From Paludisphaera rhizosphaerae (lineage in GTDB: Bacteria; Planctomycetota; Planctomycetia; Isosphaerales; Isosphaeraceae): a stretch of DNA of 64,000 bases. This document shows, in pieces, positions 1,413 to 55,320 of the stretch (its first letter is position 1; the number at the start of each line of letters is the position of its first letter). The notes under the pieces were generated by a model, which was given only the letters and a program-made list of their open reading frames with translations, did no database searches and was not told the DNA's origin. The position numbers and the translations under genes were made by a program. The stretch spans positions 62,001 through 126,000 of the forward strand of contig NZ_JAALCR010000015.1 of NCBI RefSeq assembly GCF_011065895.1, in the 5' to 3' direction.

Positions 1413-1503
1413 TACCGGGGTGGGGACTCGAACCCCAGACCTGCGGATTATGAGTCCGCTGCTCGACTGAAGAGCGGCGGCTGTCAGATCCGCCGCTCTG
1501 ACC
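1413..1503. other. attL: displaced tRNA-Met 3' half plus phage arm
   Basis: Bases 1413-1454 match attR exactly over 42 bp; identity continues to about 1464 with two mismatches. The inner phage arm forms its own tRNA-like D arm on the minus strand (GCTC/GAGC stem) and a perfectly paired anticodon stem (GCGGA/TCCGC), but no matching 5' acceptor strand, so it cannot be a complete tRNA. At 1490-1503 a further 14-bp stretch is identical to the D-arm/anticodon-stem side of the intact tRNA (39867-39880). Confidence 0.9.
1471..1499. repeat. 10-bp inverted repeat in the attL arm
   Basis: AGAGCGGCGG (1471-1480) and CCGCCGCTCT (1490-1499) pair perfectly around 9 bases. It lies between the att core and the integrase start at 1559, where an integrase arm site or a terminator for the displaced tRNA fragment could be expected. 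It has no T-run. Confidence 0.6.
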
Positions 1504-11041: not shown

Positions 11042-11254
11042 CTACTTCGCCGGCCGGCGGCGGGTCTGGATCAGCTTGACGCCCAGGGCCTCGGCCAGGC
11101 GGTCGATCGACGGGCCCGACAACGCCTGATCGCCGGCGAGGAACCGCGTGAGGTTGCCACGGTTGATCCCGGCCTCCTCGGCCAGGGCGTACAGGCTGCG
11201 TTTCTCCGCGCGGAGGATTTCGCGGAGCTGGTCGGATATCAGGTTTCGGGACAC
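11042..11254 (-). CDS. Cro/CI-like XRE-family HTH protein
   Basis: 70 residues from a GTG at 11254 behind GAGGAG; its start overlaps the end of the serine recombinase gene. Residues about 19-60 (SLYALAEEAGINRGNLTRFL, then LSGPSIDRLAEALGVKL) match the five-helix HTH of small Cro/C.AhdI-type proteins, with SIDRLAEALGV the usual closing helix. No dimerisation or protease-sensitive domain is present. It is the only repressor-like protein of this type in the prophage, so it may control the lysogenic switch, the recombinase or both. Likely binding sites are the three palindromes at 11985-12060. Confidence 0.8.
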   Translation of the reverse strand: MSRNLISDQLREILRAEKRSLYALAEEAGINRGNLTRFLAGDQALSGPSIDRLAEALGVKLIQTRRRPAK

Positions 11255-11943
11255 GGTTCGCTCCTCGACAGCAATCGTCGGATGGTGGTGACGCCCCAGG
11301 CCTCGCCGCCGTTCTTGGGCTTGAGCCCCATGGCGAGCAGCTCGGCGGCGATCGCCCGAAGGGATAGGCCGTCGTCGCGGAGCGACCTGGTCAGTTCGAC
11401 CACAGCCGCCTCGTCGGGGTCGACGACCAGGCCGACGCCGTCGTCGGTCGTCCGGAATCCGTAGGGGACCTGGCCGCACCGTTCGCCGTTCGACCGCTTC
11501 GACGCGAGCACGCCGTCCGTGCGCTCCCGGATCTTCGACAGCTCGAACTCCGCGAAGGCGTCTAGAATCCGCCTCATGAGCACGTTGATGGGGGAGTCGT
11601 CTTCCGTCCCCTCACCGGCTGCGGAGACGATCCTGGCCCCCCTGGACGTCACCTCGCGTTCGATCGACGCGCCGGTCCAGGCGTCCGTCCGGAAGATCCG
11701 GTCCCGCTTGGAAACGACCAGGCTGTCCCCCGGGCCGAGTGCGGCGATGGCCTGACGGAGGCCGGGGCGCTTCTTGAGCGGCTTCCCGCCCGACACCCCT
11801 TCATCCCGGATAACCGCCGCGACCGGCCAACCCTTGCGGCCGGCGAACTCCGTCGCGGCCTCTTCCTGGGCGCGCAGGGAGAGCCCCTTTTCGGCCTGCT
11901 CGTCCGTGCTGACCCGGAGGTAGACGACTGCGTTTCCTGGCAT
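11239..11943 (-). CDS. serine recombinase (resolvase/invertase family)
   Basis: 234 residues. The catalytic domain (about 5-145) starts VVYLRVSTDEQ with Ser12 as nucleophile and includes DEGVSGGKPLKKRPGLRQAI, LVVSKRDRIFR and the long E helix (ILDAFAEFELSKIRERT). A compact C-terminal DNA-binding part (about 150-234) ends with LSLRAIAAELLAMGLKP and WGVTTIRRLL, the HTH of this group. The length fits a resolvase/invertase-like enzyme rather than a large serine integrase. With the tyrosine integrase already present, a second recombinase suggests inversion, dimer resolution or an inserted cassette. It is read leftward, coupled to the HTH gene, with palindromes just upstream. Confidence 0.9.
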   Translation of the reverse strand: MPGNAVVYLRVSTDEQAEKGLSLRAQEEAATEFAGRKGWPVAAVIRDEGVSGGKPLKKRPGLRQAIAALGPGDSLVVSKRDRIFRTDAWTGASIEREVTSRGARIVSAAGEGTEDDSPINVLMRRILDAFAEFELSKIRERTDGVLASKRSNGERCGQVPYGFRTTDDGVGLVVDPDEAAVVELTRSLRDDGLSLRAIAAELLAMGLKPKNGGEAWGVTTIRRLLSRSEPCPET

Positions 11944-38199: not shown

Positions 38200-38278
38200 T
38201 GATTTCGCAATCTTCGGCGGATGACGGTTCGCCAGGATTATCCGTACACCTCGGCGGCCCTAACAGGCTGCCTTGGCT

Positions 38279-38308
38279 CCCCCGGCCGGGCCGTCACTCG
38301 GCCGGGGG
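38279..38308. repeat. 10-bp perfect hairpin before the initiator gene
   Basis: CCCCCGGCCG (38279-38288) and CGGCCGGGGG (38299-38308) around 10 bases. It lies 14 bp before the conserved-loop hairpin 38322-38365, making a tandem hairpin leader. Confidence 0.7.
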
Positions 38309-38321
38309 GACCCACAACCAC

Positions 38322-38365
38322 ACCGAGTTTCGGGGCTTGTCGCCAAACTTCCCCCGCGACTCGGT
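38322..38365 (+). repeat. conserved-loop hairpin, copy 1
   Basis: A CCGAGT .. CGGGG stem (38322-38335) pairs with CCCCG .. ACTCGGT (38352-38365) with one internal wobble/mismatch. The 16-nt loop CTTGTCGCCAAACTTC differs from copy 2 at one base, while the stems differ between copies yet pair. It ends 19 bases before the ATG at 38385, so it would sit in the 5' leader of that mRNA. Confidence 0.75.
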
Positions 38366-38384
38366 CAACGCCAGAGTCACTCCG

Positions 38385-39632
38385 ATGTCTTTCACCGCAG
38401 TTCCACGGGGCGCTCCCCCGCCGGGCGTCCGTGCGCCCGTGCCCAGAAGAGGGTATTGCCGCTCTCCCAAGCAACTCGTCGCCCGCGCCGATCTGACCGA
38501 CGCGGCCAAGATCCTCTTGGCGGCGCTGGCCGGTCTCTGCTGGGGCGACAATCGGGAGGGAACACCTTCCATCTACCATATCGCCGACGCTTGCGGCTGG
38601 GCCGGTAAGACGTGGAAGGTTAAGCGGGCGATGACCGAGGTCGTCAAAGCTGGACTGGTGGACCGATTTCCATGCTCTGACGCGCCGGGCTACGTCTGGA
38701 CGACGCGTCTCCTCTACGATCCATCGGGATACGACGACGTCCACGACGACGCCGAAAACCCGTCCGTCCGCGTCTTTGACCCCAGCGCGCCAGCGCCCCA
38801 ACCCCAGGGCGCAGGTGCGCCGACCCCAGAGCGCCAGTGCGCCAACCCCAGGGCGCAGGTGCGCCGACCCCAGAGCACTGGCGCTACCCCTTCTTCTAGA
38901 AGTATTCAGACTGTCTTAGACCTTGTAGACGACGTAGACGCCGGAACGTCGCCGTCGACGGTTTCGACGACCATCGAATCGGAGAACCCAGTCCCGATAG
39001 TCGAGAATGCAATCCAGGAGAAGACAAGCCCGGACCCAGATCCGGCTCCGGCAGCCGACGCCCAGGACGTTGCCTGTCTGGCGGTCGTTGCTGCTCTCGT
39101 CGAGCGTGCGTCGAAGCTGTGGCCGACCCAGGCTCCGGAGATGAGCCTGCGAGTCGGCGATCTGGTGGATAAGAGTCGCAGTCTCGGCTATGAGAGCGAC
39201 GGTGCCCGGGCGGCGGTTGAATACGCCTACCGGGCAAAAAAAGGGCCTGGACTCGCGTTCTCAATGCTTACCGAGTGGAGTTCACACGGCAAGTCGCTCG
39301 CCGATCTTCGGTCGTATCTCGCGGCGCTGGCACCCAAGCCGACGTCCCGCGTCGAGCCGGTGTCGAAGCCAGTCGAACAGTCTGGGCCCATCGATGACGA
39401 GGACCTCGCTAAAGACCTCGCGACGGCGCGGGACAGAACCCAAAGCCTGCAACAGAGGCGATGGGCGGCAGCCAGGGTCCGGCTTGCCGCCGCGCAAGGC
39501 TACCTCAAGAACGAGAACCTGGACGGTCTTCCGCCGCCGGAGGCGCAAAAAAGAACCGGCTGCGGGGCCTGTCGCCAAACTTCCCCCGCAGCCGGTGCCA
39601 GAGCGTTGTATTCGAGCCGAATCCTAGCCTAA
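38385..39632 (+). CDS. replication initiator-like winged-helix protein
   Basis: 415 residues from ATG 38385; upstream in-frame sequence contains the leader hairpins. Residues 25-110 form a helix-turn-helix domain of the kind seen in phage O and DnaD/RepA-like initiators (ADLTDAAKILLAALAGLCWG, SIYHIADACGWAGKTWKVKR, AMTEVVKAGLVDRF). A disordered stretch follows, coded by the iterons, then a helical middle domain (LAVVAALVERASKLWPTQAP; GLAFSMLTEWSSHGKSLADL) and a charged C-terminal helix. Lambda O has the same design: DNA-binding N terminus, iterons inside the gene, helicase-loading C terminus. No helicase or polymerase is encoded, so the host replisome would be recruited. The 3' end contains hairpin copy 2. 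Confidence 0.65.
   Translation: MSFTAVPRGAPPPGVRAPVPRRGYCRSPKQLVARADLTDAAKILLAALAGLCWGDNREGTPSIYHIADACGWAGKTWKVKRAMTEVVKAGLVDRFPCSDAPGYVWTTRLLYDPSGYDDVHDDAENPSVRVFDPSAPAPQPQGAGAPTPERQCANPRAQVRRPQSTGATPSSRSIQTVLDLVDDVDAGTSPSTVSTTIESENPVPIVENAIQEKTSPDPDPAPAADAQDVACLAVVAALVERASKLWPTQAPEMSLRVGDLVDKSRSLGYESDGARAAVEYAYRAKKGPGLAFSMLTEWSSHGKSLADLRSYLAALAPKPTSRVEPVSKPVEQSGPIDDEDLAKDLATARDRTQSLQQRRWAAARVRLAAAQGYLKNENLDGLPPPEAQKRTGCGACRQTSPAAGARALYSSRILA
38786..38895. repeat. 22-bp direct iterons, candidate replication origin
   Basis: Four consecutive 22-bp units end in ACCCCAG at 38807, 38829, 38851 and 38873, with a fifth, degenerate unit after. Units 2 and 4 (38808-38829, 38852-38873) are identical; units 1 and 3 are near copies. 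Because 22 is not a multiple of three the protein sequence is not repetitive, so the DNA itself appears to be what is conserved. An AT-richer stretch (38891-38935, with TTCTAGAA) follows at once, as a duplex-unwinding element would. Confidence 0.75.
39555..39596 (+). repeat. conserved-loop hairpin, copy 2
   Basis: ACCGGCTGCGGGG (39555-39567) pairs perfectly over 13 bp with CCCCGCAGCCGGT (39584-39596). The 16-nt loop CCTGTCGCCAAACTTC is copy 1's loop with one change. Same orientation as copy 1, 1.23 kb downstream. GCCAGAG follows both hairpins within 10 bases. There is no T-run, so it is not a standard terminator. Confidence 0.8.
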
Positions 39633-39697: not shown

Positions 39698-39823
39698 GAT
39701 TCCGAAACTTGTGCACATATTCAGGCGATATCGGTTTCCGACTTCGCTAGCGATGGCGTTCCGGTGCCTCCCGGATCGCCGTAGATTCACCGACGAGGGG
39801 CGAAAGTACGACGGTCGGAGAAG

Positions 39824-39865
39824 TACCGGGGTGGGGACTCGAACCCCAGACCTGCGGATTATGAG
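39824..39865. other. attR core
   Basis: Identical over 42 bp to attL (1413-1454). Covers the tRNA-Met 3' half from discriminator base through the anticodon loop, so the phage supplies the 3' half of the functional tRNA gene. Confidence 0.93.
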
Positions 39866-39897
39866 ACCGCCGCTCTGACCAACTGAGCTACCCCGGC
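39824..39897 (-). tRNA. tRNA-Met (CAT)
   Basis: 74 nt on the minus strand, folding as GCCGGGG/CCCCGGT acceptor (first pair G-U), D stem GCTC/GAGC, anticodon arm GCGGT-CTCATAA-TCCGC, T stem TGGGG/CCCCA with loop TTCGAGT, discriminator A; no encoded CCA. Anticodon CAT; an elongator Met tRNA is most likely, Ile-CAT cannot be excluded. The U31-U39 pair closing the anticodon stem is a mismatch. It is the phage attachment site. Confidence 0.95.
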
Positions 39898-55032: not shown

Positions 55033-55320
55033 CCGGCGAATTTAAGAGCGACCCCTTTTGAGTCCCCCTTTTGAGTCCCCTTTAAGAGCGACCCCTTTTG
55101 AGTCCCCTTTTGAGTCCCTTTTGAGTCCCCTTTTGAGTCCCCCCTTTCCGGCGAATTTAAGAGCGACCCCTTTTGAGTCCCCCCCTTTTGAGTCCCCTAA
55201 GAGCGACCCCTTTTGAGTCCCCTAAGAGTGACCCCTTTTGAGTCCCCTAAGAGCGACCCCTTTTGAGTCCCCAAGAGTGACCCCTTTTGAGTCCCCTTTT
55301 GAGTCCTTTTGAGTCTCCCC
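55033..55320. repeat. low-complexity array built on GAGCGACCCCTTTTGAGTCC
   Basis: Seven imperfect units of GAG(C/T)GACCCCTTTTGAGTCC, at about 55046, 55086, 55161, 55201, 55227, 55250 and 55274, are interspersed with extra TTTTGAGTCCC elements. CCGGCGAATTTAAGAGCGAC occurs at 55033 and again near 55149. The array ends 19 bases before the next gene. Spacing is irregular and there are no unique spacers, so it is not CRISPR. Confidence 0.9.

Follow-up and report, generated by a model that had tools for sequence, protein, structure and literature searches.

Paired hairpins with a CGCCAA loop at the replication gene of a Paludisphaera rhizosphaerae prophage: most likely CopA/Inc-like kissing-loop control RNAs in a new context

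The prophage and its replication gene

The window, that is, the whole stretch of 64,000 nucleotides analysed here (contig NZ_JAALCR010000015.1, positions 62,001 to 126,000), contains a 38.5-kb prophage, which is bounded by a 52-bp repeat of tRNA-Met and carries integrase, portal, and capsid genes. The same prophage is present in IMG/VR (100% match over 14.9 kb). The following features, given in window positions, are relevant to this study:

1413-1464, plus strand: attL, a 52-bp copy (96%) of the tRNA-Met segment
1559-2503, plus strand: tyrosine integrase gene, which in the circular form lies downstream of rep and hairpin copy 2
38278-38309, plus strand: second strong GC hairpin (13 bp, 6-nt loop), in the rep leader directly upstream of copy 1
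38322-38365, plus strand: hairpin copy 1, in the 5' leader of rep; loop at 38336-38351, CGCCAA hexaloop at 38341-38346, closing pairs G38339-C38348 and U38340-A38347
38385-39632, plus strand: rep, a replication-initiator-like gene matching PHROG family phrog_270 (replication initiation protein; E 2e-6)
38778-38887, plus strand: tandem array of 22-nt iteron-like repeats within rep, with a stretch of lower GC content after it
39555-39596, plus strand: hairpin copy 2, within the 3' end of the rep coding sequence; loop at 39568-39583, CGCCAA hexaloop at 39573-39578
39824-39875, plus strand: attR, inside the tRNA-Met gene (39823-39897, minus strand); right end of the prophage

The GC hairpin at 38278-38309 may be an attenuator. 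In addition to the tyrosine integrase, a serine recombinase (Resolvase/Recombinase) is encoded in the same prophage at 11239-11943. A dense tandem array with the units CCCCTTTTGAGTCCCC and TTTAAGAGCGA occupies positions 55041-55315, outside the prophage.

The prophage origin probably lies within the initiator gene, at the iteron-like array. This layout would be like that of the lambda O gene, inside which the lambda iterons are annotated. The family phrog_270 also matches the initiators that adjoin related hairpins, described below, in three other loci (L286, L296, and L473). No homologues of rep were found in genomes of the family or in viral contigs.

Structure of the two hairpins

Both hairpins fold as the first-pass annotation had proposed, presenting a common 16-nt loop, YYTGTCGCCAAACTTC, on stems that differ in sequence and are compensated. 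The stem of copy 2 is indeed made of 13 perfect base pairs (z -4.1 against shuffled sequences), but that of copy 1, also said to pair, is imperfect and consists of 8 bp, one T.C mismatch, and 5 bp (z -3.3). The statement that the hairpins bracket rep holds with a similar reservation: they are located in the leader and at the 3' end, but copy 2 still belongs to the coding sequence and falls close to the C-terminus of the product.

The two copies are near-identical over 27 nt (38331-38357 and 39563-39589), with one mismatch. Between the copies, the outer stem differs by a change of A-U to G-C, a change of G-C to C-G, and the deletion of one whole base pair, and the T.C mismatch of copy 1 is a G-C pair in copy 2. 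Pairing is kept or improved by each of the outer-stem changes. The minus-strand loop of copy 2 matches the plus-strand loop of copy 1 at 15 Watson-Crick positions and one G-U. The flanks of the copies are unlike, except for a short GCCAGAG downstream, so that the copies do not stem from a recent simple duplication.

These two are the only copies in the 8-Mb host genome, and none was detected in 44 other genomes of the family. Other 27-nt near-repeats are rare in the window and mostly belong to tandem arrays. Neither copy is followed by a U-run, as would be typical of rho-independent terminators, and no clear sigma-70 promoter was recognized on either strand at the hairpins in this GC-rich window. 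The Rfam covariance models, including those of C4 and plasmid ctRNAs, revealed no family matching the hairpins.

Related hairpins in other elements

More than 20 further hairpins, alike in the loop and with stems that pair but are unrelated in sequence, were detected in elements of Staphylococcus, Lactobacillales-type (a label taken from plasmid homologues of the primase), Vibrio, and planctomycete origin. The 13-nt core occurs at 242 sites in the fetched DNA; a handful of these, including sites from Vibrio, Staphylococcus, and another planctomycete, have stems that close at one and the same distance from this core, against 0.2 expected from a mismatched-flank null. Searching viral contigs for the exact 16-mer yielded 32 loci, about 24 of them with a closing stem. 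Many of these loci are related Staphylococcus satellites, and the number of unrelated stems is about a dozen in all. Additional members carry a variant loop, in which TTGG replaces TCTG.

A gapless alignment of 14 distinct hairpins contained 81.6% paired cells, compared to 41.9 ± 3.1% after shuffling (0 of 500 shuffles), and reached a covariation score of 0.993 (0.222 shuffled); all slid registers failed, with 33-44% pairing. The model built from these hairpins recovered three more in 397 planctomycete-class genomes, adjoining integrases and a rolling-circle-type Rep gene. The first-pass annotation had named further copies with stems that still pair as the test of selection on structure; such copies exist in other elements, and selection on structure is thereby confirmed.

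Most members were obtained with exact loop patterns, so that the conservation of the loop is overstated; the real spread is given by the cases anchored on proteins. Matches to the 14-mer loop alone in genome and viral collections were mostly due to chance, and the family became apparent after filtering for stems. The 15-mer was not enriched in planctomycete genomes, and R1 matches in other planctomycetes were mostly chance. No Rfam family matched the hairpin in the 12 member loci scanned. A literature search with the loop string retrieved no paper on such an element, and one for antisense RNA in PICI replication retrieved nothing relevant.

Several members have neighbours of other kinds. A planctomycete hairpin with the same loop (L253, 1-3043) lies between genes that by eye are ImmA/IrrE-type peptidase-like and part of a ThiF/multiubiquitin-like cluster. 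Contigs with the hairpin also carry an Rfam int-alpA RNA (L286, 2549-2612, minus strand) and a RAGATH-5 ribozyme (L300, 5235-5285, minus strand). In L299, at about 3499, the hairpin follows a tRNA-like 3' end (GGGTTCGAATCCC) beside an integrase gene.

Strand and gene neighbourhood

In 23 distinct hairpins, imperfect stem positions read predominantly as G-U when taken from the CTGTCGCC strand and as A-C when taken from the opposite one (21:3; p 2.8e-4, and p 0.004 after dereplication). Read on the GAAGTTTGG strand, this corresponds to 21 A.C against 3 G.T, and it is therefore the other strand that folds with G-U wobbles. This asymmetry alone identifies the strand and not the RNA nature of the element, since G.T is also the milder mismatch in DNA; the argument for RNA comes from promoters and U-runs. 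On the CTGTCGCC strand, 9-10 members have a TG-extended TATAAT box 15-50 nt upstream of the stem; no member has one on the opposite strand. The promoter score exceeded that of the opposite strand in 24 of 27 comparisons (p 3e-5), and about half of the relatives have a U-run after the stem. In their simplest reading, these sequence features point to a short RNA of the CTGTCGCC strand with the hairpin at its end.

In most members, the hairpin is antisense to the beginning of a replication gene. Genes next to the hairpins code for Prim-Pol/PriCT primases, a DUF3987 protein, O-like HTH initiators, and a rolling-circle-type Rep. Where the element is a satellite, the antisense RNA lies opposite the start of the gene for the primase (Prim-Pol/PriCT_1) or the DUF3987 protein. 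Its counterpart is an O-like initiator gene in several phages and the rolling-circle-type Rep gene in L312. The CGCCAA strand is antisense to the rep leader in the relatives with AEP primases, O-like initiators, and HUH Rep proteins. The two window copies lie on the rep strand.

Loop tip and loop switching

Antisense copy control via CGCCAA/UUGGCG loops is a property of a few enterobacterial plasmids. In R100 and ColIb-P9, which were fetched directly, the antisense hairpin upstream of repA has a CGCCAA tip and a U-run after the stem. Both window copies share with them a CGCCAA-type loop complementary to a UUGGCG loop of the opposite strand; the earlier view that the hairpins match no known RNA element is therefore not tenable for the loop tip. 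R100 and the Staphylococcus satellite (SaPI) PT1028 have 12 nt in common, CTCGCCAAAGTT. The predicted folds contain a CGCCAA hexaloop closed by U-A in R100, PT1028, L031, L296, L311, and the window copies; in L313, the sequence is the same but another tip is predicted. The pair next to the closing U-A covaries, being G-C in most members and C-G in R100 and PT1028. Tips of strong hairpins carried TCGCCAAA in 33 cases against 0.7 expected in 4 Mb of fetched DNA, which the searches themselves had enriched for members; two permuted controls gave 0, and the strongest case was R100.

Passages in PMC10724649 and PMC3753616 that cite Asano (1998) give the target-loop motif as 5'-rUUGGCG-3'. In IncK plasmids (IncK1/K2), changes in the RNAI loop decide compatibility (PMC10724649). 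Since model R2 reached neither R100 nor ColIb and Rfam provided no match, homology with CopA is not supported, and the sequence resemblance may represent convergence on a good kissing loop.

Homologues retrieved through their primase, and not by the motif, retain a nearly unchanged promoter and terminator, while their loops vary: TCTGTCGCCAAACTTC, TTCGTCGCCAAACTAC, TTGGTCGCCAAACTTC, or a different loop, ATTCGCCTGCAAGTTTGT. The latter, second loop type occurs near the primase start in L502, L504, and L505 in the same promoter/terminator frame. A change of loop on a constant frame is what is expected from selection on pairing specificity, i.e., incompatibility.

Interpretation

We consider that the hairpins are probably kissing-loop RNA elements of the CopA/Inc copy-control kind, which lower the expression of the replication gene. 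Transcription of the hairpins in the prophage, kissing, and repression of rep are what we infer from these comparisons. A stable stem with a small internal loop beneath the tip would present the CGCCAA hexaloop, which has a U-A closing pair, to the complementary UUUGGCG loop of an RNA from the opposite strand; this loop contact would start pairing and thereby lower replication gene expression. In most of the phages and satellites recovered, the hairpin would terminate a short RNA that has a promoter of its own and runs antisense to the beginning of the gene for the initiator or primase. The polarity appears to be reversed in the Paludisphaera prophage. The rep transcript would be the CGCCAA-bearing target, with copy 1 in the leader and copy 2 at the 3' end, so that a minus-strand RNA made from either copy, or from both, should act as the antisense partner. 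The plus strand of the prophage was searched for a target acting in trans and contains no TTTGGCGA, so that the only closely complementary RNAs would be the minus strands of the copies; it is for this reason that reversed polarity is proposed. Because of their orientation and the missing terminator, the window copies are not placed in the CopA family itself. Among the roles offered in the first-pass annotation, an RNA for replication control is the one that fares best.

Several observations speak against the CopA/Inc kind of control. The window hairpins are sense to rep and have neither a U-run nor a clear sigma-70 promoter on either strand, and the comparisons with Rfam and model R2 gave no link to CopA. 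Conservation of the loop also extends past the hexaloop in several phyla, which plain antisense RNAs would not require, although this is partly a matter of ascertainment. Such conservation, seen in Staphylococcus, Vibrio, Lactobacillales-type, and planctomycete elements, would suit a protein-binding hairpin, whose loop is read by a widely conserved host or phage protein and which serves as an operator for translation, termination, or RNA decay. The varied positions of the hairpin, which is sense to rep here, follows a tRNA-like 3' end in L299, and lies near a repressor-like gene in L295, would also agree with this explanation. We nevertheless regard it as unlikely. Near relatives with the same flanks switch to other loops, which a single loop-binding protein shared by all would hardly explain; the hexaloop is identical to that of known antisense RNAs, and no protein family is common to all loci.

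A lower probability still is assigned to ordinary terminators or a twice-copied mobile palindrome with no loop-specific role. Many relatives do resemble intrinsic terminators, and 27 nt are common to the two copies, but an 8-Mb genome with just two copies, the lack of a U-run in the window, and a loop that is kept while the stem varies, the opposite of plain terminators, argue against it. Least probable is a single-strand DNA hairpin, also proposed earlier, acting as an ssi priming site for a replicative primase or as an origin or recombination hairpin: it would explain the proximity to Prim-Pol/PriCT primases, HUH-like Rep, and integrases, but is disfavoured by strand-specific G-U wobbles, dedicated promoters, U-runs, and the occurrence in elements whose hairpin adjoins no primase and whose initiator is O-like.

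Three further candidates were rejected: a conserved peptide (KFGDR), because members are non-coding or in other frames; rRNA/tRNA mimicry, because the loop is rare in genomes; and IS200/605-type ends, no TnpA-like gene being located between the copies.

The hairpins are thus most likely a CopA/Inc-like kissing-loop control RNA that occurs in a new context. The recurrence of one loop on covarying stems next to replication genes of several phyla suggests that loop-loop RNA pairing restrains replication in many temperate elements. More tentatively, and with somewhat less than even confidence, we propose that a single kissing-loop module, built on the CGCCAA hexaloop and offering a small set of interchangeable loops, serves as an incompatibility or immunity code across phyla. 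It would be used by IncFII/I plasmids, SaPI-like, Lactobacillales-type, and Vibrio satellites, and planctomycete phages with unrelated initiators, and in the present prophage with reversed polarity, two sense copies bracketing rep. Loop-encoded compatibility groups between satellites and phages are predicted, and the family provides a model with which prophages can be searched for control RNAs that lack annotation.

Comparison with known control RNAs

In bacteriophage lambda, the small antisense OOP RNA is encoded just upstream of the initiator gene that holds the iterons, an arrangement like that of the hairpin family; the lambda cII-O region contains no related loop. The P4 CI RNA and the C4 antisense RNA (RF01695) are likewise antisense-type RNAs in the leader of a replication or antirepressor gene of satellites and phages. 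Rfam did not detect C4 in the window, nor in any of the 12 member loci that were scanned, and no comparable hairpin was present in the P4 stretch examined.

The closest likeness is to the CopA/Inc RNA (RNAI) of IncFII plasmid R100 and I-complex plasmid ColIb-P9, with the same single stem, internal loop, and CGCCAA hexaloop upstream of rep. Most relatives also resemble it in being antisense, in having their own promoter and a U-run, and in a specificity set by the loop. Unlike CopA/Inc, the family occurs in phages and satellites of several phyla, next to unrelated initiators, and is missed by Rfam; the window hairpins differ further in being sense to rep, duplicated, and devoid of a U-run.
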